In this document: positions 1,675-55,361 of the stretch, one piece after another
Layout: the number at the start of each line of letters is the position of its first letter
Position numbering within the stretch: position 1 is the first letter of the stretch
DNA from: Actinomycetes bacterium
GTDB taxonomy: Bacteria; Actinomycetota; Acidimicrobiia; Acidimicrobiales; Palsa-688
NCBI GenBank assembly: GCA_021850325.1
Contig: JAJZMF010000022.1
Coordinates: 1-61,073, forward strand
Direction: 5' to 3'
Length of the DNA stretch: 61,073 bases
Notes under the pieces: generated by a model
Seen by the model: the letters and a program-made list of their open reading frames with translations, nothing else
Told to the model about the DNA's origin: nothing
The model's database searches: none
Made by a program: the position numbers and the translations under genes

Positions 1675-2895
1675 ATGACGACCGGGACCATGCCACCGGC
1701 GTCACCGCGGGCAGACGGGGCGGCCGGTGACCGGAAGCCGGGCCGTGCTCCTCGGTCGGTGGTCGGCTGGGCGGTGCTGCCTGTCTCTGCCCTGGCTGCG
1801 TTGGCTATCGGCGCCGTGCTCATCCTCGCCTTCGGCGCCAACCCCATCACCGGTTACCGCGCTTTGCTGAACGGGGCTTTCGGGGGCAGCTACGCGCTCG
1901 CCAGCACGGCACAGAAGGCGACACCGCTCCTCCTGGTTGCCGCAGGCACCTGTGTCGCCGTGCGGGCCAATGTGTGGAACATCGGGGGTGAGGGCCAGAT
2001 CGTCGCCGGGGCCCTGGCCTCGACGGCGACGGCCCTGGCCCTGCCGGGCCTGCCCGGTTGGCTACTGGTCCCCCTGGTGCTCGTGGTCGCCGCAGCCGGG
2101 GGTGCCCTCTGGGCAGGGGTTGCCGGCGTCTTCAAGGCGTACTTCAACGTGAACGAGATCCTGAGCACGATCATGCTCAACCTGGTCGCCGTCCAGGTCA
2201 TGAACTACCTGCTCTCCGGTCCGATGGTCAACAGGTCGCAGTCTTTCTCGGTGACCGGCCTGATACCGCAGACGAGGCTGTTGTCGTCGCGCTCCTGGCT
2301 GCCCACGCTGGTCCCGGGCACGCAGCTCAACCTGGGCGTACTGGTCGCGTTGGCCGTTGCAGCTGCGGTCTACGTGCTGCTTTGGCACAGCGGCTTCGGC
2401 TTCCGGGCCCGCGCGGTCGGGCTCTCCCCTGAGGCGGCGGCCTATGCGGGCATGTCGGTCAGGCGTACCACCGTGAACGCCATGCTCCTGTCCGGGGCGG
2501 CCTGCGGGCTTGCCGGGGCCGTGCTGGTCTTCGGCTCGATCTCCCACCGGATGGTGACGGACGGCAGCCTGACCGGGTTCACCGGTAACGACGGCTTCAA
2601 CGGGATCGTCGTCGCCCTGTTCGGGGGCCTCAACCCGGCGTGGAGCGTGGTATCGGCGTTCCTGTTCGGAGGGCTGCTGGTGGGGGGCACGGCGATGCAG
2701 GGGGCGACCGGTGTCCCCACCGACCTCGTCACCACCATCGAGGGGCTGGTCGTGGTCTTCGTCGTCTCGATGGACTTCCTGCGCACCGGTGCCCGGCTCC
2801 GCCAGGAGGTGACGGAGCGGGGGGGTGACGGTGACCTGCCCGCCCGGGCACGGTCGCGGTCCCTGGTCCTGCGACTGGCGCGGGCACGGGTATGA
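1675..2895 (+). CDS. Nucleoside-type ABC transporter permease 1
   Basis: Inner-membrane permease of the BMP/nucleoside importer family (YufP-like, PF02653 branched-chain/ribose fold). About ten hydrophobic segments start near residue 27. The motif VWNIGGEGQIVAG after the second segment and the NEILSTIMLN loop are characteristic, and the latter contacts the ATPase. I prefer the ATG at 1675 (GGGTGA upstream) to the TTG at 1618 in the same frame. It is the first gene of a four-gene operon: its stop overlaps the next permease by ATGA, so the two membrane subunits are probably made in equal amounts and pair as a heterodimer. Substrate is inferred from family only. Confidence 0.88.
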   Translation: MTTGTMPPASPRADGAAGDRKPGRAPRSVVGWAVLPVSALAALAIGAVLILAFGANPITGYRALLNGAFGGSYALASTAQKATPLLLVAAGTCVAVRANVWNIGGEGQIVAGALASTATALALPGLPGWLLVPLVLVVAAAGGALWAGVAGVFKAYFNVNEILSTIMLNLVAVQVMNYLLSGPMVNRSQSFSVTGLIPQTRLLSSRSWLPTLVPGTQLNLGVLVALAVAAAVYVLLWHSGFGFRARAVGLSPEAAAYAGMSVRRTTVNAMLLSGAACGLAGAVLVFGSISHRMVTDGSLTGFTGNDGFNGIVVALFGGLNPAWSVVSAFLFGGLLVGGTAMQGATGVPTDLVTTIEGLVVVFVVSMDFLRTGARLRQEVTERGGDGDLPARARSRSLVLRLARARV

Positions 2896-3824
2896 GCCAG
2901 TTCTTCACCTATGCCGTCATAACGGCGACGATCGCCTCAGCTGTGCAGTACGCGGCGCCGTTCCTGCTGGCCGCCCTGGGCGAGACTGTGGGCCAGCGGA
3001 GCGGGGTCCTCAACCTGGGCGTGGACGGGATAATGCTCCTCAGCGCCTTCAGCTGCTACTTCGTCGCCCTGCGGACGGGCAGCGACCTGCTCGGGGTGGT
3101 GGTCGGCATGCTCACAGGAGCCGTCCTGGGGCTGCTGACGGCGTTCATGAGCGTCACCCTGAGGGCCCAGCAGGGGATCAGCGGCATCGGCGTGTACATC
3201 TTGGGCCTTGGTCTGAGCGACCTGCTGTTCGTCCGTTTCGTGGGCACGCCTCTCCCCGTCAGCTCCCTGCCCAATGTCTCCGTACCCGGGTTGTCCCGCC
3301 TACCCGCACTGGGGCCCATGTTCTTCCAGCAGAACTGGTTGGTGTACATAGCGTTCCTCCTGGTCCCGGCGGTGGCGTTCTTCCTTTACCGCACCACCTA
3401 CGGGACCAGGGTGCTCGCGGTTGGCGAGAACCCGGCGGCAGCGGACAGCGTGGGGATCAGCGTCACCCGCACCCGCTACGCGACCGTGGTCTTCGGCTGC
3501 ACCATGGCAGGTCTGGCGGGGTCCACGCTGCTCCTCCTGGACGGTATCTTCCAGGAGAACCTGACCCAGAGCGCGGGGTTCATCGCCGTTGCCCTCGTGT
3601 ACTTCGGGGCCTGGCGCCCCTTCGGCGTGATGACCGGGTCGCTGCTCTACGGAGTGGTCACGGCCGTGGTCCTGCAGTGGAAGTCGCTCGGGATAATCCC
3701 GACCTCGGCCGCGGACCTTGCCGCCACGGCTCCGGCCGTCATAACCGTGCTGGCGCTGGTAGTGCTGGCAGGCCGCTTCAAGCAGCCCTCCTCATTGGGC
3801 AAGGCCTATGTCAGAGGTGCCTGA
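2892..3824 (+). CDS. Nucleoside-type ABC transporter permease 2
   Basis: Second permease of the importer (YufQ-like, PF02653), 310 residues, with about eight to nine hydrophobic segments. The family signature GQRSGVLNLGVDGIMLL lies near residues 35-51, and the cytoplasmic loop GENPAAADSVGISV that couples to the ATPase lies near 178-191. The ATG overlaps the stop of the upstream permease (ATGA), which implies translational coupling. The C-terminus slightly overlaps the originally longer frame of the binding protein, but that gene probably starts further downstream. Confidence 0.9.
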   Translation: MSQFFTYAVITATIASAVQYAAPFLLAALGETVGQRSGVLNLGVDGIMLLSAFSCYFVALRTGSDLLGVVVGMLTGAVLGLLTAFMSVTLRAQQGISGIGVYILGLGLSDLLFVRFVGTPLPVSSLPNVSVPGLSRLPALGPMFFQQNWLVYIAFLLVPAVAFFLYRTTYGTRVLAVGENPAAADSVGISVTRTRYATVVFGCTMAGLAGSTLLLLDGIFQENLTQSAGFIAVALVYFGAWRPFGVMTGSLLYGVVTAVVLQWKSLGIIPTSAADLAATAPAVITVLALVVLAGRFKQPSSLGKAYVRGA

Positions 3825-3894
3825 CCCCGGCCCGGCCCCTGAGGCCGTCACCGCAACGGGTAGGAGCACCTACCCCCGAACAAGGAGGACCACC

Positions 3895-4890
3895 TTGGCA
3901 ACGAGACTCTTGCGAGCACGGGCGCTGTTGGCCGGTGCCGTTGTGCCCGCGGTTGTGGCCGCCGTCCTGCCCGCTGCCACACCTGCGGCGTCGGCTGCGC
4001 CCGTCCTCAAGGTGGCGCTGGTGGCTCCCAGCGCTGTCAACGACCTGGCGTTCACGCAGTCCATGGTGGCGGCATTGAACTCGTTGAAGAAGGCGTACAA
4101 CCTGCGGGTCACGATCTCGGACAACGAGTTCGTCGTCTCGGACGCTGCCAACCTCATCCACCAGTACGCAGCCGAGCACTACAACCTCGTCATCGCCCAC
4201 GGCTCCCAGTACGGGAGCATCCTGCAGCAGCTGGCCCCCAAGTTCCCCAAGGTGTCCTTTGCCTGGGGCACTGCCGGGTCGACCTTCAACCAGCGCAACA
4301 TCTATGCCTACCAGGCGGCCTCCAACCAGGGTGGCTATGTCCAGGGCTACATGGCCGGGATGATCAGCAAGAGCCACGTGATAGGGGTGATCGGCCCGAT
4401 CGACGTGGGCGATGCCCAGCTGTACGTGGACGGGTTCAAGGCGGGTGTGCTGGCTCAGGACCCGAAGGCCACGGTGCACGTCTCGTTCACCGGTTCCTTC
4501 AGTGATGTCAGCCTCATGGCCAGCGCGGCGAAGTCGTATGTGGCCGACGGCGCCGACGTGCTGAGCGGGAGCTCGCAGTCCGTGGTCGGGGCCATCGGTG
4601 TGGCCAAGTCCCGCAACGCGGCCTGGTTCGGCACCCAGTGGGTGCAGACGTCGCTGGCACCCAAGACGGTCGTCTCGTCCCAGGTCTACAACTGGGTACC
4701 CGTCCTGCGCCAGATGTTGGGGCGCATCCGCGTGGGCAAGCTCGGTGGCGAGACGTACACGATCAACCTGGCCAACGGTGGGGAGAAGATCGACTTCAAC
4801 CCCGGTTACAAACTGCCTGCCAAGGTCAAGGCCGAGGCTGACAAGCTCGTGTCGGAGATCGCGCACGGCTCGCTCAAGGTCCCTCAGTAG
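3895..4890 (+). CDS. BMP-family substrate-binding protein (nucleoside-type)
   Basis: Extracytoplasmic binding protein of the Bmp/Med family (PF02608) feeding the two permeases. I choose TTG 3895 over an in-frame ATG at 3808. AAGGAGG lies six bases before the TTG, and the TTG start gives a clean Sec signal peptide (MATRLLRARALLAG, then a hydrophobic core ending ASA-AP). Starting at 3808 would place about 29 odd residues in front of the signal. Family blocks visible include VNDLAFTQS, NLVIAHGSQYG, GYVQGYMAG and VSGSSQSVVGAIGVAK-like segments. There is no lipobox Cys, unlike many BMP proteins, so retention at the membrane is unclear. Mature length is about 300 residues. Confidence 0.88.
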   Translation: MATRLLRARALLAGAVVPAVVAAVLPAATPAASAAPVLKVALVAPSAVNDLAFTQSMVAALNSLKKAYNLRVTISDNEFVVSDAANLIHQYAAEHYNLVIAHGSQYGSILQQLAPKFPKVSFAWGTAGSTFNQRNIYAYQAASNQGGYVQGYMAGMISKSHVIGVIGPIDVGDAQLYVDGFKAGVLAQDPKATVHVSFTGSFSDVSLMASAAKSYVADGADVLSGSSQSVVGAIGVAKSRNAAWFGTQWVQTSLAPKTVVSSQVYNWVPVLRQMLGRIRVGKLGGETYTINLANGGEKIDFNPGYKLPAKVKAEADKLVSEIAHGSLKVPQ

Positions 4891-4914
4891 GGAACCGGGC
4901 ACAGGGACGAGGTC

Positions 4915-6519
4915 ATGGCCGGTACCCCGGAGGTAGCGTCAGCGGGACCGCTCCTGGAAATGCGCGGGATCACCAAGCGTTTCCCCGGGGTGCTGGCCAA
5001 TGACAACGTCGATTTCGACGTGCGCCCCGGGGAGGTCCACGCCCTGTTCGGGGAGAACGGGGCCGGCAAGAGCACGTTGATGCACGTCCTGTACGGCATC
5101 CATCAACCCGACCGGGGCACGATCGCCCTGGGGGGCCGGCCAGTCCGCATCCCGTCGCCTGCTGCCGCCATCGCCATGGGCATCGGCATGGTCCACCAGC
5201 ACTTCATGCTCGTGCCCACCCTCACAGTGGCCGAGAACGTGTCCCTGGGGCTGAAGTCCAGCCGGGGCCCGCTCAAGGACCTGAGCCGGGTGGCGGCCCG
5301 GGTGGAGGAGCTGTCGGAGAGCTATGGCCTGCGTGTGCACCCGTCGGCCAAGGTGTGGCAGCTCTCGGTGGGGGAGCGCCAGCGGGTGGAGATCATCAAA
5401 GCCCTCTACCGGGAGTCACGGCTGCTCGTCCTCGACGAGCCGACGGCAGTGCTGACCCCGGGCGAAGTGGACGAGCTGTTCGCTGCGCTGCGGAAGATGG
5501 CGTCCGAGGGGTGCGGGCTCGTGTTCATCTCCCACAAGATCCGTGAGGTGCTCGGCCTTTCGGACCGGGTCACCGTGCTCAGGGCGGGCCGGCGCGTGGC
5601 GACCGTGCAGGCCGGGGAAGTGAGCGGCGAGCAGCTGGCCGAGATGATGGTCGGTAGGCACATCAACCGTGAGGACCTGACGGCCAGTGCGGTGCCCGGC
5701 AGGGCGCGCCTGTCCGTGAAGGGCCTCGTAGTGAGGGGTGACCGGGGCACCGAGGCCGTACGGGGGGTCTCGCTCGAGGTCAGGGCGGGTGAGATCGTCG
5801 GGATCGCAGGCGTGTCCGGCAATGGCCAGAGGGAGCTGGAGGAGGCGATCGCCGGGCTACGACCGCCGGCGCAGGGTTCGGTGCTCGTGGACGGAGCCGA
5901 GCTGGCTGGTCGGCCCTCGGGGGCAGTGAGGAGGGCCGGCCTCGGCTACGTCCCCGAGGAGAGGATGAGGCACGGGGTGGTGGGGGAGTTCAGCGTGGCG
6001 GAGAACCTGATGCTGGCCAGCTCGAACGACCCGGCCCTCCTCCGGCGTCCCGGGTTCCTGCGCCGCAGGGCGGTGCGCGCCCGGGCACGGGAGCTGGTGG
6101 CGGCCTTCGACGTGCGCACCCCGAGCCTGGCCACGCCGGTGAGGAACCTGTCCGGCGGCAACATCCAGAAGCTGATAGTGGCCCGGGAACTGGCGGCCCA
6201 GCCCAAGGTGTTCCTCGTGGCCCAGCCCACCAGGGGTATTGATGTCACAGCCGCCCGCTACATCCATGAACGCCTGAGGGCAGAGGCGGCAAAAGGCACG
6301 GCGGTGCTGATCGTCTCCGAGGACCTGGACGAGGTGATGACCGTTTCCACCCGGGTCCTCGTGATGTACGAGGGCAGGGTCATCGGCGAGGCCGACCCCC
6401 GCCACACCACGAGGGAGGCGATCGGGCTGATGATGGCCGGTGTCGTCGCAGCCGGAGCCGAGCCGGCCCGGGGCCCCGGAAGAGAGCTCGAGGCCGCAGC
6501 CGACGCCGAGGTGGTCTGA
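4915..6519 (+). CDS. Nucleoside-type ABC transporter, double ATP-binding subunit
   Basis: Energises the upstream permease pair (YufO/RbsA-like, two ABC domains in one 534-residue chain). The first domain has an intact Walker A (GENGAGKST, about residues 43-51), signature LSVGERQRVE and Walker B LLVLDEPTAV. The second has a degenerate Walker A (GVSGNGQRE), signature LSGGNIQK and Walker B-like VFLVAQPTRGID. The asymmetry of one canonical and one degenerate site is normal for this family. It lies 24 bp after the binding-protein gene and is the last gene of the operon. Confidence 0.93.
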   Translation: MAGTPEVASAGPLLEMRGITKRFPGVLANDNVDFDVRPGEVHALFGENGAGKSTLMHVLYGIHQPDRGTIALGGRPVRIPSPAAAIAMGIGMVHQHFMLVPTLTVAENVSLGLKSSRGPLKDLSRVAARVEELSESYGLRVHPSAKVWQLSVGERQRVEIIKALYRESRLLVLDEPTAVLTPGEVDELFAALRKMASEGCGLVFISHKIREVLGLSDRVTVLRAGRRVATVQAGEVSGEQLAEMMVGRHINREDLTASAVPGRARLSVKGLVVRGDRGTEAVRGVSLEVRAGEIVGIAGVSGNGQRELEEAIAGLRPPAQGSVLVDGAELAGRPSGAVRRAGLGYVPEERMRHGVVGEFSVAENLMLASSNDPALLRRPGFLRRRAVRARARELVAAFDVRTPSLATPVRNLSGGNIQKLIVARELAAQPKVFLVAQPTRGIDVTAARYIHERLRAEAAKGTAVLIVSEDLDEVMTVSTRVLVMYEGRVIGEADPRHTTREAIGLMMAGVVAAGAEPARGPGRELEAAADAEVV

Positions 6520-6594: not shown

Positions 6595-7539
6595 TCACCC
6601 GCCTCTGACCGGCGTGGCCCCTCGGCTCGTGGCGGGAGCGCGGACCAGGTACCACGTCCCTCCGAAGGAGGGGATCCCCTCGCCATTGGCGTTGCCCGGA
6701 CTGCTGTCGCCCGCGTAGGTGTACAAGGGGTACCCGTTGTAGGTCAGCTCCCTGAGCCCGCCTCGGGCCAGCACTCCCAGGTGCCCGCGGACGCCGGGGC
6801 CTGCCCGGGGCACCTGGCCCTTGCCCACCAGTAACGGAGGCCAGATGGACAGGCACCCCGAGGTGCAGGTCAGGTGGCCGGGCCGCTCGTCCGAGAGGAG
6901 GTAGAGGCTCATGCGGCTGCTGTCAGCGAGCACCGGGCCGTAGTGGCGGAGGTCGACGACGACCACGGTGGGCTTCCCTGTTGCCGGGCCGGAGCGGACG
7001 GCACCGGCCCCGGCCACCGGGCCCACGAGCTCGAGGGAGAGCGCCAGGGCGAGCGCTCCGGCACCGAGCAGAGCCCCAGTCGCCCGAGCGGCCGTGGCCA
7101 GCACCCGGCCTCCACGGGGGGCCCGGAGAGCCAAGCGGGCCAGGGCCACCGCTCCCAGGACGCCGAAGGCGGCGAGCTCCAGGCCGCCGGCCCATGCTCC
7201 ATAGGACGTCGGCACCTCCTTGAAGCCGAACAGGCCGACGCTGAGGCTGAGCAGGTAACCGCCCAGAGTGGCCAGAGCGAACAAGGCGGCACCTGCGGGG
7301 ACCACGGGCCCTTTGGTCGCCACCACGAGCACGGCAGAACAGATGGCAGCAGCGAACTGGAGGACGAAGAGCGTACCGATCGTGGGGACCGGCCCGTAAC
7401 CGTTGAAATAGAGGTACAGGTGCAGCGCCCCGCTGCCCGCCAGCACCAGGGCGCCCAGAGCTGCGAAGCCACGCCCGCCCAGGGCCCGCGCCCAGGGCCC
7501 CGGTCCTGCCGCATGCCCACTTACCGTTCCTGTGCTCAT
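6595..7539 (-). CDS. Membrane protein with C-terminal PF03640 'secreted repeat' domain
   Basis: About 314 residues. The N-terminal half has five to six hydrophobic segments (residues about 20-175). The C-terminal half is extracytoplasmic, with two blocks typical of the COG4315/PF03640 repeat: LTCTSGCLSIWPPLLV and LTYNGYPLYTYAGDSSPGN...GGTWYLV. Proteins with this repeat are common in actinobacteria and bind an unknown ligand; some are suggested to be redox-linked. It sits 86 bp downstream of an ASST-family gene on the same strand and is probably co-transcribed with it, so it may be its membrane partner. That pairing is inference. Confidence 0.75.
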   Translation of the reverse strand: MSTGTVSGHAAGPGPWARALGGRGFAALGALVLAGSGALHLYLYFNGYGPVPTIGTLFVLQFAAAICSAVLVVATKGPVVPAGAALFALATLGGYLLSLSVGLFGFKEVPTSYGAWAGGLELAAFGVLGAVALARLALRAPRGGRVLATAARATGALLGAGALALALSLELVGPVAGAGAVRSGPATGKPTVVVVDLRHYGPVLADSSRMSLYLLSDERPGHLTCTSGCLSIWPPLLVGKGQVPRAGPGVRGHLGVLARGGLRELTYNGYPLYTYAGDSSPGNANGEGIPSFGGTWYLVRAPATSRGATPVRGG

Positions 7540-7625
7540 GTCGGTTGTCCCCCGCGCGTCGTGGTCTTGCCTACCCGAGGGTTATTACGCAGGGGCGGTC
7601 CAAGGGGATGGCCCGACCGGCGGGC

Positions 7626-9170
7626 TCAGGCTGGTTTGACCGGGCGTGAGCGGGCGAGCTCACCCCCTGCGCCGTCGAGGGCGACGACGGCGAAGAAGGG
7701 GCCGGCGGAGTTCACGGCCACGGCCGTTTCGAAGCCCGTCCTGGGCTGGGCACCCACCTCGCTGAGCGAGCCCGCGGTCGCTCCGGCAAGGACCACCCAG
7801 CGAGCCAGCGCGGTCGAGCCGTTCCAGCTGGCATAGGCGACAGAGCCGCCAGCCGGGTTGGCCTTTACAGCCAGGGCGGGAGGCTCCGCCGGTACGGCTG
7901 CCCAGTCCTGGGTGTAGGCGCGGTAGGAGTGGTACCCGAGAGGCAGCTCGCCGTCGAGGAGGAGCTCACCTCCGGCCGAGAACTCCGTGAAGTAGGGCTG
8001 GTTGCCCCAGCCCACGAAGGCACGCCCGTCTGCCAGCAGCTGGACGTTGCCCTGGTTGGCGGCGATGAACCCGGCCGGGTGCTCGAACGCCCGGAGAAGG
8101 CGGACATCGCGCGCGGCCTCGTCCACGCCCAGTAGCAGACCTCTTGACCTGCGCTCCTCGTCAGGGCTGCCGCCGTCGTCGAACACGGTCATCAGGTTGT
8201 GCCCGTGAGGGCGCGCGTCGTGCTGCCAGTAGAAGTTGGAGGCCGGGCCCATTTTGAAGTCGGACCGCCGGCCGTTCATCCTCCATATGACGTCACCGCT
8301 CACCCTGTCGATTTTGTAGATCGCCCATGTGTTACGCGCTGATATTATCAGGTTGCCATCGGGCGCCTCGGCGACCGAATTTATGTGGAAATAGTCGAAC
8401 GGGCCGGGTGCGGAGTACCGCTGGTAGGTCTCGTCGATGCCGATATGGCGGTAGCTGTCCCAGTCCATCAGCACCTTGCCCGACGCCAGGTCGACCTCCT
8501 GGGCGTGCCCGGTCAGCACCCGGGCTTTGGACGGGCCGCCCAGCGAGGACAGGTCTGTCACCACGTGGCCGAACGCGGTTATGAACGCAGTGCCCCGGGA
8601 CGTGAGCAGCAGCTCGTGCAGGTCCGCCTGCAGCCCGTCACCTGCTTTCACCGTCAACAGGTCCTGGTAGTGGGTGCCCGCCAGCTGTCCCGTGCCCAAC
8701 CCGTAGCCATTGACCACCTTGCCCTGCCACCAGGTGAGGACGGGCCGCCCCCGGTATGACTGCACCTGGAGGTCGAAGGGCGCCAGGGACGGCATGGGCT
8801 TGAACCAGACCAGTTCACCGCGACGGTCCAGGACCATCAGCCCGGGCTCGCTGTCGCTGACGGGTAGGTAGGTCCGGGCAGCCAGGAAGATGTACCCGGG
8901 GCCTGCCGGGCCGGGGGCGACCTGGTCGACGCGGACGCGGGGCGGCTTGAGGTCGGGCCGGCTCACGAACCGCAGCGGGGTGGCGGAAGGGTGACCGGAG
9001 CCCTCGCCGGCGGTGACCGGCCGGTGCCCGTGCGGCCACTCGTAGCCGGCGAGGCCGGCCAGTGCCAGCGCCGCCAGGCCCCCGCCGGCCCCGGCGAGGA
9101 AGCGGCGCCGGCTCAGGGCCGCTCGGGGCTCCTGGCCGCCCTCGGGCTGGCGCACTACCGGTCCGTTCAT
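7626..9170 (-). CDS. Tat-exported arylsulfotransferase (ASST)-family beta-propeller protein, copy 1
   Basis: Predicted extracytoplasmic protein of the PF14269 arylsulfotransferase family, 514 residues. The frame is open to 9419, but I start at ATG 9170, where AGGAG sits seven bases upstream and a twin-arginine signal follows (SRRRFLAGAGGG plus a hydrophobic stretch). Family blocks are FDYFHINSV (about residue 260), SARNTWAIYKID, WRMNGRRSDF, WQHDARPHGHN (about 315) with conserved histidines, GNVQLLADG, VGWGNQPYFTEF and a C-terminal ASWNGST/GFET strand pair. In characterised ASST enzymes a histidine accepts the sulfuryl group; which His does so here is not known. The gene diverges from the sulfotransferase at 9330 across a phased repeat array. 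Confidence 0.8.
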   Translation of the reverse strand: MNGPVVRQPEGGQEPRAALSRRRFLAGAGGGLAALALAGLAGYEWPHGHRPVTAGEGSGHPSATPLRFVSRPDLKPPRVRVDQVAPGPAGPGYIFLAARTYLPVSDSEPGLMVLDRRGELVWFKPMPSLAPFDLQVQSYRGRPVLTWWQGKVVNGYGLGTGQLAGTHYQDLLTVKAGDGLQADLHELLLTSRGTAFITAFGHVVTDLSSLGGPSKARVLTGHAQEVDLASGKVLMDWDSYRHIGIDETYQRYSAPGPFDYFHINSVAEAPDGNLIISARNTWAIYKIDRVSGDVIWRMNGRRSDFKMGPASNFYWQHDARPHGHNLMTVFDDGGSPDEERRSRGLLLGVDEAARDVRLLRAFEHPAGFIAANQGNVQLLADGRAFVGWGNQPYFTEFSAGGELLLDGELPLGYHSYRAYTQDWAAVPAEPPALAVKANPAGGSVAYASWNGSTALARWVVLAGATAGSLSEVGAQPRTGFETAVAVNSAGPFFAVVALDGAGGELARSRPVKPA

Positions 9171-9195
9171 ATGAGTGCTCCTAGCAAGCGTAATT

Positions 9196-9253
9196 GTGAC
9201 AGGTCGGTGATCATCTGTAACGGAACTGTGATGGTCTGTAACAGTTGTGTGAG
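9196..9253 (+). promoter_or_regulatory. Six phased GTRAC-like half-sites (predicted response-regulator array)
   Basis: Half-sites GTGAC 9196, GTGAT 9207, GTAAC 9217, GTGAT 9228, GTAAC 9238 and GTGAG 9249 are spaced 11, 10, 11, 10, 11 bp, so all lie on one face of the helix. Each pair forms GTRAC-N6-GTGAK, and the pairs repeat every 21 bp. The array fills the intergenic region between the two divergent ASST-locus operons. OmpR-family regulators such as MtrA typically bind direct repeats of this kind. Thirteen bases (GTAACAGTTGTGT) recur exactly upstream of the response-regulator gene at 51069. Confidence 0.7.
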
Positions 9254-9329
9254 AGCCGCAGCGTGCACAGTTTACGGCACTTTGCTGCGCGGTATTGTGC
9301 CGCCACACCCGTAGTGAAGGAGCGGTTTC

Positions 9330-10037
9330 ATGAAGGTAATCGGCGCAGGCCTGCCCCGCACGGCGACGCTCACCCAGAAGCTGGCACTGGAGACGCTCGG
9401 CTTCGCCCCCTGCTACCACATGGTGAGCGTCCTCTCCGACCTGTCCCTGGTGCCGCGCTGGCGGGAGGCCTTGGAAGGGCGAGGGGAGTGGGACGAGATC
9501 TTCGGTGCCTACGCGGCCACGGTCGACTGGCCGGGGGCGTTCTTCTACCGGGAGCTCATGGAGGCCTACCCCGAGGCCAAGGTCCTGCTCAGCGTACGGC
9601 CGGGCGAAGCCTGGGAGCAGAGCATGGCCTCGACCATCTGGGGGGTCTTCTACGGGGACATGCTCATGTGCGACCTCTCGACAGCCTGGGGACGCGTCGA
9701 TGCCGGATGGGCGTCGTACATCGCCCTCATGAAGCAGATGTGGGAGAAGAGCGGGCTGCTGGCCGGGGAGGACGGTCCCGGTGACGGCTCCATGGCCCGG
9801 GCCATGGAGCGCTACAACGCCGAGGTCAAGGCCACTGTCCCCGCCGACCGGCTGCTCGTGTGGTCGCCGGCGGACGGCTGGGGCCCGCTGTGCGACTTCC
9901 TCGAGGTCCCAGTGCCCGAGGCGCCCCTGCCCCGTGTGAACGACTCGCAGGCGTTCGCGGAGCGCATCATCTCCTCTGCACTGGCAGCGATCAACCGCTG
10001 GGCCGGTGCGCAGGCGGTGATGGCTGCGCCCAAGTGA
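9330..10037 (+). CDS. Cytosolic sulfotransferase (Sulfotransfer_4 type)
   Basis: About 235 residues, no signal peptide. It resembles the PF17784 sulfotransferases that use PAPS. The N-terminal 5'-phosphosulfate-binding loop reads GLPRTATLTQ (the usual GxPRTGT with Gly replaced by Ala), followed by LGFAPCYHM. A second family block is PEAKVLLSVRPGEAW near residues 84-98. The start has a good ribosome-binding site (AAGGAG). Its stop overlaps the next gene's GTG (GTGA), so the exporter-ASST fusion is translationally coupled to it. The acceptor is unknown. Confidence 0.8.
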   Translation: MKVIGAGLPRTATLTQKLALETLGFAPCYHMVSVLSDLSLVPRWREALEGRGEWDEIFGAYAATVDWPGAFFYRELMEAYPEAKVLLSVRPGEAWEQSMASTIWGVFYGDMLMCDLSTAWGRVDAGWASYIALMKQMWEKSGLLAGEDGPGDGSMARAMERYNAEVKATVPADRLLVWSPADGWGPLCDFLEVPVPEAPLPRVNDSQAFAERIISSALAAINRWAGAQAVMAAPK

Positions 10038-13030
10038 GCACCTCAGGGCCCGCGGTCGCCGCGGCCCCTACCGGCGGGCAGTCGACGCCCGGCGGGGCAG
10101 GGCACAGCGGGCCCGGGTACCCCGGAGCAGGGCCGGCCCGCCCCGGCCTCCTGCTCGGGGTGAGCTGTGCCGCGCAGTTCATGGTCATCCTCGACCTCTC
10201 GATCGTCAATGTCGCCCTGCCATCCGTGCAGGCGAGCCTGTCTTTCTCGAGCACGGGCCTGCAGTGGGTGGTGGACGCCTACGCCATCGTGTTCGCGGGC
10301 ACGCTCATGCTCGGCGGCAGGGTCGCCGACCACTTCGGCCTCCGGCGGACCTTCGTTGCCGCTCTGGGCCTCTTCTCGTTGACCTCGCTGGTCGGTGGCC
10401 TTGCCGTTGACTCGGGGATGCTGGTGGTGGCCAGGGCCGCCCAGGGCCTGAGCGGGGCCCTGATGGCCGCCACCTCGCTGGCGGTGATAACCGCATCGTT
10501 CCCGGCCGGGCAGGCGCGGAACCGGGCCATCGGCCTCTGGGGGGCCATGAACGGTGCCGGGGGGGCGGTCGGCACCCTGGCTGGTGGGGTGCTGACCCAG
10601 GAAGCGGGCTGGAGATGGGTGCTCCTCATCAACCCGCCCATCGGCCTGGCCGCGGCCTTTGTCGCCTACCGGGTGGTCACCGGGCACGGGCGGGGCACGC
10701 GGGCCGGCTTCGACGTGGTGGGAGCAGCGACGCTGACCGCGGGCCAGTTGGTACTGGTGTACGGGGTGGTCCAGGGCGGCCAGCTCGGCTGGGCCGCCCC
10801 GGGCGCGGTGGTGCCCATGCTCGTGGGGGCGGGGCTGTTGGGGCTCTTCGCGCTCGTCGAGACCCGGGCGCGCAACCCGCTCGTGCCGCTGCGCTCACTG
10901 AGCCGCCCGGTGAAGGTGGCCAACCTCATCGTCCTCCTCTTCAGTGCCTCGCTGTTCTCAATGTGGTACGTCAGCTCGCTCTACCTCCAGCAGGTGCTGG
11001 GCCTCTCGCCCCTGGCGACCGGCCTGGCCTTCCTGCCCATGGCGCTCGCCATCTTCGCGGTGGCCTCCCGGGCCGGGCGACTGGTCGGCCGTCTGGGGGT
11101 GCGGGCCGTCCTCGGCAGCGGCCTGCTCCTCATGGCCGTGGGCATGCTCCTGTTGGCCCGTGCCGTCCCCTCGGGCAGTGCATGGGCGTACGTGGTGCTG
11201 CCCGGTGTGCTCACTGCGGCCGGTATCGGGCTCTCCATCGTGCCCTCCACCATCTATGCCACCCAGGGGGCGGCCCGAGCCCAGGCGGGCATGGCCTCGG
11301 GCCTGGTCAACACGGCGCGCCAAGCGGGAGCGGGGATCGGGCTGGCCCTGCTCGTGTCGCTTGCCACCAGGCAGACGAGCGCCGAGGTGGCCCGACAGGT
11401 CGGCGTGCCCCAGGCTCTCACCGACGGCTTCCGCCTGGCGTACCTGGCCGGGGCTGCCTGCGTGGTGGCCGCCCTGGTGGTGACCATCGCCTGGGCCCGC
11501 CCTGCGGCACCCTCCGGTGTGCCCAGCGACCGTCGGGCCCTGGTGGCGCTCGTCGCCACGCTGGCATGCTTCATCGGGGCGGACCTCGGCCTGGCCCGGG
11601 GCGCAGGTGCCCCCATCGGGGAGTACACCACGGCGTCGACGTGGAGCTTCGTCACCCAGCCCGGTCTGCACCCGCCCAAGGTGGTGGCGGACGCGGCAGC
11701 ACCTGGCGCCCACCTACCGGGCGACGTGCTCGTCGCCAACTTCTACAACCTGGGTTACGGGCCCATGTACGGCCAGAGCGGGCCGCTGGTGCTGGGGCGG
11801 GGGCTGCAGCCGGTCTGGTTCCACCCGGTGCCCAAGGACGTTGTGGCGTCCAACCTCGAGGAGCAGGCCTACCTGGGCCATCCCGTGCTCACCTGGTGGC
11901 AGGGCGTCGTCTCCTCGACCGGCGCCACCGAGAGCGGCGAGGACGTCGTCGTCAACCAGCACTACCGGACCGTGGCCCGCCTGCGGGGCCGGGACGGCTG
12001 GGTCATCACCATGCACGAGATGATCCTCCAGGGCCACTACGCGTGGGTGACTGCCAGCAAGGACGTGCCCATGGACCTGTCCCGCTACGGAGGCAGCGTG
12101 GACGGGGTCCTCGACGACTCGGCGGTACAGGAGTACGACCTGCGGACCGGCCGGCTCGTCTACACCTGGGACGCCCTTCACCACGTGCCTCTGAGCAGTT
12201 CCCACGCTCAGCCTCCGGCCAACGGCTTCCCCTGGGACGCCTACCACGCCAACTCCATAAGCCTGGCGCCGGGGGGAAGGTTCCTGGTGTCCATGCGCAA
12301 CACATGGGCCGCCTACATGGTCGACGAGCACAGCGGCAGCGTGCAGTGGCAGCTGGGGGGCAGGGGCTCGACCATTGCCGTGCCGGCCCGGGCCACGTTC
12401 CGCTGGCAGCACGATGTGAAGCTCACCCGGCCCGACCAGGTGACCCTGTTCAACGACAACTGTTGCGAGATAACAGGGGCGGGCACCTACCTCGCCCCCT
12501 CCGGGCCGTCGGCGGCCGAGGTGCTACGCCTGCACCTGTCCCAGCACCGCGCCGGCCTGGAGGCGGCCTACCGGCGGGGGCCCCACTACTCCGCGGCCTA
12601 CATGGGCAACGTGGAGCTGCTCCCCGACGGCAACGTCTTCGTGGGCTGGGGGTCGCAACCGAACTTCAGCGAGTTCTCCCCCGGGGGCAGGCTGCTGATG
12701 GACGCTGCCTTCCCGGGCCCGGACCTCAGCTACCGGGCGCTGGTCGCCCGGTGGTCGGCCACCCCTTGGTACCCACCGGTGGGCGCGGCCCGGTCCGTGC
12801 CCGGCGGCACCGCCGTCTACGCCAGCTGGAACGGTGCGACCGGGGTCGTGGCCTGGCGGGTGCTCGCCGGCAGCTCACCCCAGCGGCTGGGCAGGGTGGC
12901 CGAAGCCCGTTCGTCCGGGTTCGAGACTGCCCTGAGGGCGCCCTCGACCGGTTTCTACCAGGTCCAGGCCCTGGGCCGGGCGGGCCAGGTCCTCGGCACC
13001 TCCAAGGTGTTCAGGCCCGCCCCCCGCTAG
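10034..13030 (+). CDS. MFS exporter fused to an extracytoplasmic arylsulfotransferase-family domain (copy 2)
   Basis: A 998-residue two-part protein. Residues about 38-490 form a 14-segment DHA2 (EmrB/QacA-type) exporter with the motifs LDLSIVNVALP, GRVADHFGLRR and WRWVLLINPP. Residues about 545-990 are a PF14269 ASST beta-propeller: AYHANSISL (about 737), SMRNTWAAYMVD, FRWQHDV (about 791), GNVELLPDG, VGWGSQPNFSEF and ASWNGAT. A further hydrophobic segment at about 500-520 (LVALVATLACFIGADLGLA) is a likely 15th helix that would place the ASST domain outside the cytoplasm, as its Tat-exported paralogues would be. The GTG start overlaps the sulfotransferase stop (GTGA); the frame is open further upstream. 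I know of no described exporter-ASST fusion. Confidence 0.83.
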   Translation: MSTSGPAVAAAPTGGQSTPGGAGHSGPGYPGAGPARPGLLLGVSCAAQFMVILDLSIVNVALPSVQASLSFSSTGLQWVVDAYAIVFAGTLMLGGRVADHFGLRRTFVAALGLFSLTSLVGGLAVDSGMLVVARAAQGLSGALMAATSLAVITASFPAGQARNRAIGLWGAMNGAGGAVGTLAGGVLTQEAGWRWVLLINPPIGLAAAFVAYRVVTGHGRGTRAGFDVVGAATLTAGQLVLVYGVVQGGQLGWAAPGAVVPMLVGAGLLGLFALVETRARNPLVPLRSLSRPVKVANLIVLLFSASLFSMWYVSSLYLQQVLGLSPLATGLAFLPMALAIFAVASRAGRLVGRLGVRAVLGSGLLLMAVGMLLLARAVPSGSAWAYVVLPGVLTAAGIGLSIVPSTIYATQGAARAQAGMASGLVNTARQAGAGIGLALLVSLATRQTSAEVARQVGVPQALTDGFRLAYLAGAACVVAALVVTIAWARPAAPSGVPSDRRALVALVATLACFIGADLGLARGAGAPIGEYTTASTWSFVTQPGLHPPKVVADAAAPGAHLPGDVLVANFYNLGYGPMYGQSGPLVLGRGLQPVWFHPVPKDVVASNLEEQAYLGHPVLTWWQGVVSSTGATESGEDVVVNQHYRTVARLRGRDGWVITMHEMILQGHYAWVTASKDVPMDLSRYGGSVDGVLDDSAVQEYDLRTGRLVYTWDALHHVPLSSSHAQPPANGFPWDAYHANSISLAPGGRFLVSMRNTWAAYMVDEHSGSVQWQLGGRGSTIAVPARATFRWQHDVKLTRPDQVTLFNDNCCEITGAGTYLAPSGPSAAEVLRLHLSQHRAGLEAAYRRGPHYSAAYMGNVELLPDGNVFVGWGSQPNFSEFSPGGRLLMDAAFPGPDLSYRALVARWSATPWYPPVGAARSVPGGTAVYASWNGATGVVAWRVLAGSSPQRLGRVAEARSSGFETALRAPSTGFYQVQALGRAGQVLGTSKVFRPAPR

Positions 13031-13076
13031 AGGCCCGGGACCGAGGGCGCAGATGCCTGCTTGCCGGGCACGCCGG

Positions 13077-13107
13077 TACGACCGGGGCCGACCAGGCCCC
13101 GGTCGTA
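13077..13107. terminator. Bidirectional terminator-like hairpin
   Basis: A perfect 13-bp stem (TACGACCGGGGCC and its complement) with a 5-nt loop GACCA lies between the convergent MFS-ASST and small lipoprotein genes. It has no U-tract, as is common for actinobacterial terminators. Confidence 0.7.
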
Positions 13108-13122
13108 GCACCGGTGCCGTGC

Positions 13123-13305
13123 TCAGTAGCCGGGCGCCCTGGTGGTGCTGGTGGTGGAGCCGTGGCCACTCGAGCCGCCACATGCAGTGGGCACGAACAC
13201 CAGGGCCCCCAGGACCACCACAGCGGCCACGGCACGCGCCGTGCCGGTTCTCAGCGCCCCGGCCAGGGGGCGTTCATCCCGATGAGGACGTTCCACGGCA
13301 CCCAA
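13123..13305 (-). CDS. Small predicted lipoprotein
   Basis: Sixty residues: a basic N-terminus, a hydrophobic core (AVAAVVVLGALVF), a lipobox-like PTAC with Cys42 and a short Gly/Ser/Thr tail. The start is TTG, with an in-frame GTG three codons later as an alternative; neither has a strong ribosome-binding site. It is convergent with the MFS-ASST fusion. The tail is too short for a folded domain. The Pro at lipobox position -3 is atypical, so lipidation is uncertain. I do not recognise a family. Confidence 0.45.
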   Translation of the reverse strand: MGAVERPHRDERPLAGALRTGTARAVAAVVVLGALVFVPTACGGSSGHGSTTSTTRAPGY

Positions 13306-13428
13306 GCCTAACCCTGGCGGGTACCTGAGCTGAAGGTCCAGCGGTGACGGGCACAGGACTGTTACATGTGTGACCGCCAGTGCCGGTGGGGAAGGGCCGG
13401 TGCCCGGTGCCGGGCCGTGCCGGTGACG

Positions 13429-14724
13429 CTAGAGCCGGCCGAGGCGGTAGGACAGCGAAGGGCCCTTGACGGCGCCCCCGGTGACCACCGGGACGGTGGC
13501 CGAGAGCGGGCCGAGCTGGACCCGGACAGAGGCCACACGCTCGCCCGCAGCCAGTTGGTGGAGCCGGGGCCCCTCGATGACGGGCATCTGCTGGACGCTG
13601 AGCCGGGCCGTCTGGCCCGGGACGGTGAGGAAGCTCACCGGGACCGTCGTGGAGGCGGTCGTCGATGCTCCCCAGGGGCTCCTCACGTCGATCACCCTGG
13701 TCCCCGAGGGCAGGACGGTGACCTGGCGGAGCTGGGCGAACGCTGCGTTCACGAGCAGCTGGGCGTCGGAGAGCGCGCTGGCCAGGGGCTGCACGCCGGT
13801 CGCCCCCAGGACCGCCCCGAGGACCGTCAGCTCCCGGCCGGCCACCCTGCGCCGGGCGGCGAAGACGAAGTTGCCGCCGGCGGGCACCGTGGAGCCGGTC
13901 TTGACCCCGATGATCCCGTCCGTGCCGAGCACCCTGTCGTAGTTGTAGACGGTGCCGGCGACGGGCAGGTCCACCTGTGGCATGGCGACGACCTGGCGCA
14001 GGACGGGGTTGGCCATTACAACGGCAGCCAGCTTGACCATGTCGGCAGCGGTGCCCACGCTGTTGGGGTCCAGCCCGGAGGCATCGGCCAGGTGCGTCTG
14101 GTCCAGGTGCAGCGCCGCGGCCTCGGCGTTCATCTTCTGCACGAAGGCAGGCAGGCTGCCCGCGTCCCAGGTGGCCACCATGTCCGCGACATTGTCGGCG
14201 GAGGGTATGAGCATCGCCTCGAGGGCCTGGAGCTCGGTCAGCTGCTCGCCGGCCTGGACGGGTACCAGTGACTCGGACTGGGCGAGCTCGGCGGGGTAGG
14301 CGGCCGCCTCTGCCGGGCTCACGGTGAGGACGGGCCCCTGCTGGCCCGGGCGCAGTGGGTGGTCCTTCAGGAGGACCAGGGAGGTTATGAGCTTGGTCAC
14401 GCTGGCCAGGGGGCGGACAACCGTGGCGTTGACGCCGCCCAGGTCGGCGACGCCCTGGATCTCGACGTCGGCTGCGCCCAGGGCCGGCCAGGGCATCGGG
14501 GCCATCGTCCCGGGGGCCACCACCTCAGCGGGGAGCACCACCGAGGCCACGGCCGGGGGCACAGCCCGCGCCACCTGTACGCCGACGAACACCGCCCCCA
14601 GCACCGCCAGCACCACCAGGGCGGCCACCAGTCGCCTGAGGGCGATGACTGCGCCCCCGGCCCGACCGCTCCGAGGTCCTCGGTACGGGGGACGGTGGCC
14701 GCTGTAAGCCGTCGGCTGGGTCAT
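13429..14724 (-). CDS. D-alanyl-D-alanine carboxypeptidase (S11, PBP5-like)
   Basis: Low-molecular-weight penicillin-binding protein that trims the terminal D-Ala of peptidoglycan stem peptides outside the membrane. The frame is open to 15450 across trigger factor, but the protein begins at ATG 14724, giving 431 residues with one N-terminal helix (LRRLVAALVVLAVLGAVFVGV). Catalytic motifs are SxxK as SVTK in LASVTKLITS and KTG as GVKTGSTVPAGG. The second motif, normally SxN, reads S-A-D in IPSADNVADM. Divergent from tig. It fits the wall-synthesis theme of the mre/rod cluster further downstream. Confidence 0.87.
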   Translation of the reverse strand: MTQPTAYSGHRPPYRGPRSGRAGGAVIALRRLVAALVVLAVLGAVFVGVQVARAVPPAVASVVLPAEVVAPGTMAPMPWPALGAADVEIQGVADLGGVNATVVRPLASVTKLITSLVLLKDHPLRPGQQGPVLTVSPAEAAAYPAELAQSESLVPVQAGEQLTELQALEAMLIPSADNVADMVATWDAGSLPAFVQKMNAEAAALHLDQTHLADASGLDPNSVGTAADMVKLAAVVMANPVLRQVVAMPQVDLPVAGTVYNYDRVLGTDGIIGVKTGSTVPAGGNFVFAARRRVAGRELTVLGAVLGATGVQPLASALSDAQLLVNAAFAQLRQVTVLPSGTRVIDVRSPWGASTTASTTVPVSFLTVPGQTARLSVQQMPVIEGPRLHQLAAGERVASVRVQLGPLSATVPVVTGGAVKGPSLSYRLGRL

Positions 14725-53762: not shown

Positions 53763-53804
53763 CGGCGCCGGTGATGTGCATCGGACGAAACAGGAGGTAT
53801 GGCA

Positions 53805-55361
53805 GTGGACAGGTTGCTGGGACGGCGCGAGGTACTGGGTGCCCTTGGTGCCGGAGCCGTCGGCACGCTGGCTGGCAGGGGGCTGGGAGGCGCCGGCCGG
53901 GCGGTGGGAGGGCTCGCCGAGCTGGGGGGACGAGGGGGTGCGCCGATCTCCGCCGGTTTGGCGCCGCTCGCCTCCCGGGCCACCACGGCGACCGGGCAGG
54001 TCCAGCGCTTCCTGTCCCGCCCCGACCTGCAGCCGGCAGCGGTGCAGCTGGTGACGGCGCTGCCCGGGCAGGCTCCTGGCCTGGTCCTGATGGACAGCCA
54101 CGCCGGACCGGGCCAGCAGGGACCTCTCCTGCTCGACAGCTCCGGGCAGGTGGTGTGGTTCAACCCGCTGTCGGCCGGCGCCACCCCCGCGCTACGGGCC
54201 TTCAACGTGAGCCTCCAGCAGTACGGCGGGCGTCCGGTGCTGGCCTGGTTCCAGGGGGCGGTGGTGGACGCCCACGGCCAGGGCCACTACGTGCTGGTCG
54301 ACAAGTCGTACCGGACCGTGGCCAAGGTCTTCGGCGCCAACGGCCTGCAGGGCGACCTGCACGAGTTCTTCGTCACCCCGAGGGGCTCGGCCATCTTCAC
54401 CTGTTACGGGACGCAGGAGGCGGACCTGTCACACCTGGGCGGGCCGCGCCACGGCGCCTACTTCTACGGTGTGGTCCAGGAGGTCGACATCGCCACGGGC
54501 AAGCTCCTCTGGCAGTGGCGCAGCGACCAGCACGTGCCTCTCTCCGACTCCTATGCCCCCCTCGGCAGCCACATGACCGTGCCCTGGGACTACCTGCACA
54601 TCAACTCGGTGTCCGTGGACGGCGCCGGTGACTTCCTCATCTCGGCCCGCAATACCTGGTGCGTCTACAAGGTGAGCCGGGCGACCGGCGCTGTGCTGTG
54701 GCGGATGGGGGGCAAACGCAGCCAGTTCCGTTTCGGGCCTGATGCCCAGTTCGCCTGGCAGCACCACGTGGTGGCCCATGCGGGTGGCCTGGTGAGCATC
54801 TTCGACAACGGTTCGGGCGACTACGTCACCGAACCACAGTCGCGGGGGATCGTGCTCAGGGTGAACGAGAAGGCGCGCACCGCCGACCTGGTGCTCCAGT
54901 TCACCCACCCGGGCCAGCCGGTCCGGGCCGGTGCCCTGGGGAGCGTGCAGCTCCTCCCCGACGGCCACGTGTTCGTGGGATGGGGCGCAGAGGCGGCCTT
55001 CACCGAGTACGACAGCAAGGGCCGGCCCGTGCTGGACGGGCGGCTCGCTGGCCACGGCATCGAGTCCTACCGGGCCTTCCGCTCGCAGTGGCAGGGATCG
55101 CCGCCCGACGTGCCCGCCGTGGCTCTCAGAAGTGCCGGGAACGGCACCGAGGTGGCCGTCAGCTGGAACGGCGCCACTGCCGTTGACCACTGGGTGGTCA
55201 TGGGCGGCAGCTCGACGGGTTCCCTCTCCGCCCTCGGCCAGGCCCCCAGGCGGGGGTTCGAGACTCTGATCAGCGTCCCTCAGCGGCACACCTACCTGGC
55301 CGTCCAGGCCGTGGGCCGCGACGGTCGCCTCCTGGGGAGGTCGCGGGCCGTGCGAGCCTGA
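53805..55361 (+). CDS. Tat-exported arylsulfotransferase-family beta-propeller protein, copy 3
   Basis: 518 residues. AGGAGG (53792-53797) is one base from ATG 53799 but seven from GTG 53805, so I choose the GTG. A twin-arginine signal follows (GRREVLGALGAGAVG). PF14269 blocks: LHINSVSV (about 265), SARNTWCVYKVS, WRMGGKRSQFRFG, FAWQHHV (about 318; the WQHD of the other two copies is WQHH here), GSVQLLPDG, VGWGAEAAFTEY and SWNGAT. It lies 42 bp after the GerMN gene, as fourth gene of the two-component operon. Confidence 0.8.
   Translation: MDRLLGRREVLGALGAGAVGTLAGRGLGGAGRAVGGLAELGGRGGAPISAGLAPLASRATTATGQVQRFLSRPDLQPAAVQLVTALPGQAPGLVLMDSHAGPGQQGPLLLDSSGQVVWFNPLSAGATPALRAFNVSLQQYGGRPVLAWFQGAVVDAHGQGHYVLVDKSYRTVAKVFGANGLQGDLHEFFVTPRGSAIFTCYGTQEADLSHLGGPRHGAYFYGVVQEVDIATGKLLWQWRSDQHVPLSDSYAPLGSHMTVPWDYLHINSVSVDGAGDFLISARNTWCVYKVSRATGAVLWRMGGKRSQFRFGPDAQFAWQHHVVAHAGGLVSIFDNGSGDYVTEPQSRGIVLRVNEKARTADLVLQFTHPGQPVRAGALGSVQLLPDGHVFVGWGAEAAFTEYDSKGRPVLDGRLAGHGIESYRAFRSQWQGSPPDVPAVALRSAGNGTEVAVSWNGATAVDHWVVMGGSSTGSLSALGQAPRRGFETLISVPQRHTYLAVQAVGRDGRLLGRSRAVRA

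Follow-up and report, generated by a model that had tools for sequence, protein, structure and literature searches.

Why should a bacterium build an exporter and an arylsulfate sulfotransferase (ASST) as a single polypeptide, and place it directly behind the gene for a sulfotransferase of another kind? The question is raised by contig JAJZMF010000022.1 of an actinomycete, which was analysed whole (the window; G000:C45, 61,073 bases, in the genome G000 of 3.18 Mb and 49 contigs). It encodes a PF17784 sulfotransferase predicted to use 3'-phosphoadenosine 5'-phosphosulfate (PAPS), a fusion of a major facilitator superfamily (MFS) transporter with an ASST and, on the opposite strand, an ASST predicted to be exported by twin-arginine translocation (Tat). 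This cassette is real, conserved and mechanistically coherent. In our best reading, which we consider more likely than not, it would operate as an export-coupled two-step sulfuryl relay, a variant of the Cpz8/Cpz4 logic of caprazamycin sulfation, transferred to the cell surface and tied to an exporter. The relevant features are the following.

7626 to 9170, minus strand: predicted Tat-exported arylsulfotransferase of about 514 aa (PF14269, twin-arginine motif SRRRFLAGAGGG), the partner ASST
9171 to 9329, no strand: intergenic region of 159 bp between the divergent Tat-ASST and sulfotransferase genes; from its coordinates, a probable promoter region
9330 to 10037, plus strand: PF17784 (Sulfotransfer_4) sulfotransferase, predicted cytosolic and PAPS-type, 235 aa (profile, nearest structure 9kf1, P-loop GAGLPRTATLTQK)
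10034 to 13030, plus strand: MFS-ASST fusion, 998 aa, likely GTG start, stop at 13028-13030 (MFS_1 and PF14269, full-length relatives)
10142 to 11494, plus strand: MFS part of the fusion with 14 predicted transmembrane helices (residues 37-487), DHA2/EfpA-like by AlphaFold2 model and EfpA match
11528 to 11593, plus strand: 15th hydrophobic helix of the fusion (residues 499-520), from hydropathy and the model, preceded by an Arg-rich linker (by eye)
11636 to 13027, plus strand: ASST propeller and C-terminal beta domain of the fusion (residues 535-998) with H661, H738, N740, R755 and H793 (Cpz4 fold match, column counts)

From left to right, the genes are a PF03640 membrane protein (minus strand), the Tat-type ASST (minus), the PF17784 sulfotransferase (plus) and the MFS-ASST fusion (plus). 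All four had been named by the first-pass annotation, and all are present with profile matches above cut-off. The layout it gave, 6595-13305, stands for the start and the gene order but not for the end, as the fusion stops at 13028-13030 and not at about 13305. An 898-aa frame at 10615-13311 was judged spurious, being another frame that runs through the fusion gene. The GTG start of the fusion at 10034 overlaps the TGA of the sulfotransferase (10035-10037) by 4 nt in the motif GTGA, and the corresponding overlap in G287, a genome of the same genus, reads ATGA.

The fusion scores 158.5 bits against MFS_1 and 116.4 bits against PF14269 (cut-off 27). Its AlphaFold2 model, made with 107 aligned sequences, has a mean predicted local distance difference test score (pLDDT) of 90.7 and a predicted template modelling score of 0.88; an earlier model from four sequences (pLDDT 36.0) was set aside. 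Residues 534-996 of the model match Cpz4 in entry 9kf6, a reaction intermediate, with Z 48.3 and a root-mean-square deviation (rmsd) of 1.9 Å over 445 residues at 35% identity, and Cpz4 in entry 9kf4 with Z 46.1. The MFS part matches EfpA (8ufd) with Z 42.6 and rmsd 3.4 Å over 460 residues (all by VIA-align). The 50 best structural matches were mostly MFS chains, and the absence of EcASST, the AssT of uropathogenic E. coli, from among them has no bearing on its fold. With 14 helices and an MFS fold in the model, the MFS part is exporter-like, and it is not filed as EmrB. We rejected an assembly artefact as unlikely for the fused frame, since MFS and ASST parts share one frame at 42 of the 78 loci described below.

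On which side of the membrane would the ASST domain work? A 14-helix DHA2 transporter has both termini in the cytoplasm. Because the 15th helix follows 14 MFS helices with both ends inside, the ASST domain would sit outside, and in the modelled topology it is probably extracytoplasmic. This placement is supported independently by five unfused members of the fusion-type clade (the second copy of L092, L096, L098, L100 and L101), in which a signal-peptide-like stretch stands at the position of helix 15, and the sequence after it resembles that of the fusions (both by eye).

The catalytic residues were assessed in an alignment of 107 ASST rows, 40 from fusions and 67 from single ASSTs, with 2 short fusion frames and 31 of the 95 available single ASSTs omitted. 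H661, H738, N740 and H793 are conserved without exception (107/107), and R755 is kept in 105/107. In the alignment with 3elq, H738, N740, R755 and H793 fall on H356, N358, R374 and H436 of EcASST; H661 was placed as the equivalent of His252 via the Cpz4 alignment, not via 3elq. In EcASST, His356, Asn358 and Arg374 are catalytic and H436, the nucleophile, is the sulfated residue (PMC13426309). A propeller lacking the catalytic histidine geometry would have refuted the first-pass annotation; this outcome did not arise, as the catalytic residues are kept. A Cys-Cys pair at fusion residues 810-811 is invariant across four fusions compared; it is present in 49 of the 107 aligned ASSTs and gapped in the other 58.

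In a quick ASST tree, made without bootstrap, the 48 fusion-type rows form one clade with a Shimodaira-Hasegawa-like approximate likelihood ratio test (SH-aLRT) value of 100. Eight of them had been scored as single: L066 proved to be fused, a contig end truncates L070 and L097, and the other five group together in a clade of their own (98). A single fusion with one later split would account for this tree, and so would the reverse. The record of L097 is titled Chlamydiae, and its fusion-type ASST is nested among actinobacterial sequences; it is probably a misbinned contig.

The sulfotransferase scores 206.2 bits against PF17784 (cut-off 22.8), with the full profile covered, and its best match among solved structures is 9kf1 (E 3e-39). 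This entry is probably Cpz8, judging solely from its deposit number, which is in the same series as those of the Cpz4 entries. The Tat-ASST, whose longest frame is 7626-9419 on the minus strand but which probably starts from the ATG at 9170, just ahead of SRRRFLAGAGGG, scores 159.9 bits against PF14269 (curated cut-off 27) and matches Cpz4 (9kf4) with E 5.5e-99 in the sequence comparison with solved structures. It falls in a clade of 8 tree rows (SH-aLRT 99), for 7 of which a fusion-type ASST lies in the same stretch; the remaining row, L010, is 16 kb from a second cassette of G000. As the loci in the tree were fetched for their ASST, this co-occurrence speaks of recurrence, not of exclusivity.

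Is the cassette peculiar to the window? By profile matches, the whole G000 genome holds five PF14269 and three PF17784 genes. Its second cassette, on contig C36, consists of a PF17784 gene (L009 8612-9310) followed by a 996-aa MFS-ASST fusion (L009 9346-12336), with a Tat-ASST (L010 8389-10047) about 16 kb beyond. Just upstream of this cassette (L009:2608-7015) lie, by eye, genes resembling a LacI-type regulator and an ATP-binding cassette (ABC) sugar importer. When the fusion protein was searched against 395 genomes of the class, the full-length matches among those listed came from three genomes: G000 (two), G287 and G173, the last from another family. At most two candidates were scored per genome, so fusions may be undercounted, and most matches cover the MFS part alone; the long-frame ASST matches of G231 (1013 aa) and G110 (1119 aa) were inspected by eye and not counted as fusions. 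A PF17784 gene stands directly upstream of all four fusions (4/4). The pairing of sulfotransferase and fusion is thus not due to chance, since a second pair of the same kind and order exists in G000 and the pair recurs in other genomes.

A contig collection was then scanned with the fusion-type ASST domain, and the best 80 of 171 relatives were kept as 78 loci, among them the G287 and G173 loci again (L065 and L095). Their record titles name Acidimicrobiaceae, Acidimicrobiales, Solirubrobacterales, one Streptosporangiales bin and others. MFS and ASST share one frame at 42/78 loci, several of them cut by contig ends and one (L118) with its MFS part spread over two frames. A sulfotransferase lies immediately upstream of the fusion at 14 of the 42 and anywhere in the stretch at 17, and another ASST is present at 28. 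The neighbourhood is hence conserved beyond the window genome; a lack of such conservation would have refuted the first-pass annotation. The divergent layout of the window, with the Tat-ASST opposite the sulfotransferase and fusion, recurs in L067 and L069; at many other loci an ASST on the same strand precedes the fusion instead. When the genes of 82 loci were clustered, the two most widespread groups were ASST and sulfotransferase. A further group, with one PF00884 sulfatase match, occurs in 9 loci, including L071 (11298-13226), L077, L081, L103, L111, L117, L123 and L129. Eight of its nine members carry a C-x-P-x-R motif, which we take to be the formylglycine motif; the ninth is a fragment.

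The association was also examined at the level of whole genomes, in 151 genomes of the order of G499, a genome itself chosen for carrying a fusion. A fusion occurs in 11 of them (G488, G490, G492, G497, G499, G507, G510, G514, G564, G658 and G659); the MFS part was seen in the locus sequence for ten, and G564 was judged by E-value and a 1005-aa frame with one internal TAG. PF17784 occurs in 31/151 genomes, namely in 11/11 with a fusion vs 20/140 of the others (Fisher p 5e-9, relatedness uncorrected). Against the genomes with an ASST match but no fusion, which include G613 with an unfused fusion-type ASST and G568 with a partial match, the comparison is 11/11 vs 10/41 (p 6e-6, relatedness likewise uncorrected). 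Among the 38 genomes behind fusion-type loci, 34 have PF17784; one of the loci, L070, is cut at a contig end.

Could these bacteria supply the PAPS? Adenosine 5'-phosphosulfate (APS) kinase makes PAPS. Its gene was found in 10/10 genomes examined, G000 included, and in 11/14 control genomes, as it is widespread among bacteria. Three of the 42 fusion loci contain it (L075, L080 and L091) vs 0.16 expected on the assumption of one copy per 3.2 Mb. At L185:175-6092 (G658:C220), one strand carries, in a tight row, the genes for the fusion, a Tat-ASST, a PF17784 sulfotransferase and APS kinase; the first two of these genes overlap by ATGA, and so do the last two. In L182 (G659) the APS kinase gene runs into an ASST gene beside the sulfotransferase and fusion.

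Gene content, 4-nt overlap, conservation, catalytic residues, predicted fold and helix count, and genomic PAPS supply were established computationally; the relay, its donor and its acceptor are inferred. The cytosolic PF17784 enzyme would charge a small carrier, probably phenolic, with a sulfuryl group taken from PAPS. The DHA2-type MFS part, assumed to transport outwards, would export the resulting aryl sulfate. The sulfuryl group would then go to the catalytic histidine of the fusion's ASST domain (H793), held outside by helix 15, and of the Tat-ASST, and from there to acceptors beyond the membrane. The order of events proposed by the first-pass annotation, sulfation inside, export and transfer outside, fits the 14+1 helices, the signal-peptide-like unfused relatives and the APS kinase beside some cassettes; its chemistry belongs to the inferred part. 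More tentatively, and here we would put the chances somewhat below even, the cassette may serve soil Actinomycetota as a dedicated machine for sulfation at the cell surface. With exporter and transferase joined in one polypeptide, a PAPS-charged aryl sulfate could pass from the transport path straight to the catalytic histidine outside, and further exported ASSTs could distribute its sulfuryl group among surface polymers or secreted compounds. All steps from APS to transfer outside would then, in some genomes, be encoded by a single row of genes. The carrier may even be lipid-like, given that the MFS part is close to EfpA, which was solved with lipids (8x6x).

Several observations weigh against the relay. 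Within the window's own order the system is sparse: PF17784 was found in 46/158 genomes (42 above cut-off), PF14269 of any kind in 23/158, and the fusion in three. At 28 of the 42 fusion loci no sulfotransferase lies immediately upstream (5 of the 42 have less than 800 bases upstream), four of the 38 genomes behind fusion-type loci have no PF17784 (completeness of the genomes not given), and the genome-level association counts any PF17784 gene, not just the fusion-adjacent kind. The first-pass layout, with the sulfotransferase coupled to the fusion, accordingly holds for the window, with its GTGA overlap, but immediate adjacency does not extend to these 28 loci. The overlap is not universal either, because in the second G000 cassette the two frames are about 35 bases apart. 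The MFS part scores 214.5 bits against efflux_EmrB (TIGR00711), below the cut-off of 230.2. In the 5'-phosphosulfate loop of the window sulfotransferase (GAGLPRTATLTQK, 9342-9380), located by what we take to be the motif of PAPS sulfotransferases, PRTAT replaces PRTGT, with Ala for Gly. PRTAT was read in 9/9 sulfotransferases adjoining an MFS frame (9 loci), and many other PF17784 genes in the comparison have PRTGT or GRTGT. Finally, a type III polyketide synthase (PKS; PF02797) was found in none of the three genomes G000, G287 and G173. The corresponding enzyme of the caprazamycin pathway, the maker of the phenolic donor, is presumably Cpz6, and its lack here implies that the donor carrier must differ or be made otherwise.

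Some of these observations would be accommodated by other explanations. That the MFS part is closest to multidrug pumps, EfpA among them, suits a detoxification system, in which phenolic toxicants would be sulfated by the sulfotransferase and pumped out by the MFS part. The ASST would be secondary, retaking sulfuryl groups from sulfate esters outside for any phenol present. The sulfatase-like genes with C-x-P-x-R motif in several loci also agree with it, as sulfate esters may be cleaved outside. We regard this as unlikely, because a catalytically intact ASST fusion kept over many loci, with further ASSTs and in some cases APS kinase, is more than conjugation and expulsion would need. The 28 fusion loci that have no sulfotransferase immediately upstream fit better with an MFS part that exports the acceptor instead of the donor. 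The fusion would then sulfate what it exports, as this leaves the cell and from a donor of other origin, while the neighbouring sulfotransferase would act in parallel. Caprazamycin is a secreted antibiotic, and that Cpz4 acts on it lends this scheme some plausibility. The pairing at 14/42 loci and the genome-level association nevertheless suggest that the fusion handles the product of the sulfotransferase, and we find export of the acceptor less likely still.

Both enzymes are nearest, among solved structures, to Cpz4 and the probable Cpz8, which would also be expected of a dispersed, caprazamycin-like tailoring set for a secondary metabolite whose scaffold genes lie in another part of the genome. 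The missing type III PKS in G000, G287 and G173 argues against it, and no scaffold-making family was recognised around the ASST and sulfotransferase groups of the 82 loci (ten neighbour proteins and a few more scanned); to this explanation we assign the lowest probability of the three. The export-coupled relay is therefore the reading that we retain. The conserved set, which joins a PAPS-charging enzyme to an exporter and ASSTs and, in some genomes, to APS kinase, offers a direct genetic handle on donor and acceptor. If true, the relay would let bacteria sulfate molecules outside the membrane, where PAPS is not available.

Two further features of the window bear on the extent of the system.

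6595 to 7539, minus strand: PF03640 membrane protein with 5 hydrophobic stretches (one PF03640 match, 52.7 bits, cut-off 24.4), judged outside the conserved system
53799 to 55361, plus strand: third ASST of the window (PF14269, RR motif)

The PF03640 protein had been included in the locus by the first-pass annotation. It has no relative in 131 loci, including the 78 of the ASST scan (tblastn, E 1e-3), and for this reason we rejected it as a member and do not count it in the system. The third ASST is a possible further member; its nearest tree rows lie beside fusion cassettes in L061 and L068, then in L069 and L062. Elsewhere in the window, 4915-6519 encodes an ABC-transporter ATPase with two ABC domains and adjoins permease-like frames at 2892-4890; by eye, these genes (2892-6519) look like a sugar or nucleoside importer. 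A plus-strand frame at 13366-14271 was rejected as a gene by judgement.

How does the cassette compare with known systems? Uropathogenic EcASST (3elq) is likewise a propeller ASST, and its His356, Asn358, Arg374 and His436 match H738, N740, R755 and H793 of the fusion. It differs in being a single periplasmic enzyme of very distant sequence (7e-05 with a profile), and we know of no PAPS-type sulfotransferase linked to it. The DHA2 pumps EfpA, EmrB and QacA share the 14-helix fold, to which the fusion adds a 15th helix and a 460-residue enzyme; no MFS-ASST fusion is named among the 50 best structure titles. The first-pass annotation knew of no described system with this layout. That holds for the exporter fusion, the Tat-exported partner and the APS kinase row, no description of which was found in the searched literature (titles and starts of abstracts, most subscription papers not covered), but not for the chemistry, which is already known from Cpz8/Cpz4.

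The closest parallel is the caprazamycin pathway of Streptomyces, in which sulfation proceeds in two steps: the PAPS-dependent Cpz8 charges a phenolic donor, which the PAPS-independent ASST Cpz4 then uses (PMC4257720; PMC6731281). The likeness lies in a PAPS-type sulfotransferase and a PF14269-like ASST serving one pathway, and no solved structure comes closer than Cpz4 to the ASST domains of the window, by sequence (E 5.5e-99) or by fold (Z 48.3). In contrast to the caprazamycin system, a type III PKS was not found in G000, G287 and G173 (the nucleoside antibiotic genes were not searched for), a Tat-exported ASST partner is present and, in some genomes, APS kinase stands alongside. Above all, the ASST is here fused to a 14-helix exporter and probably placed outside. 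The exporter fusion and the likely extracytoplasmic setting are new relative to Cpz8/Cpz4 and, if the relay is true, the arrangement would carry a two-step sulfation beyond antibiotic biosynthesis, the setting in which it has been known until now.

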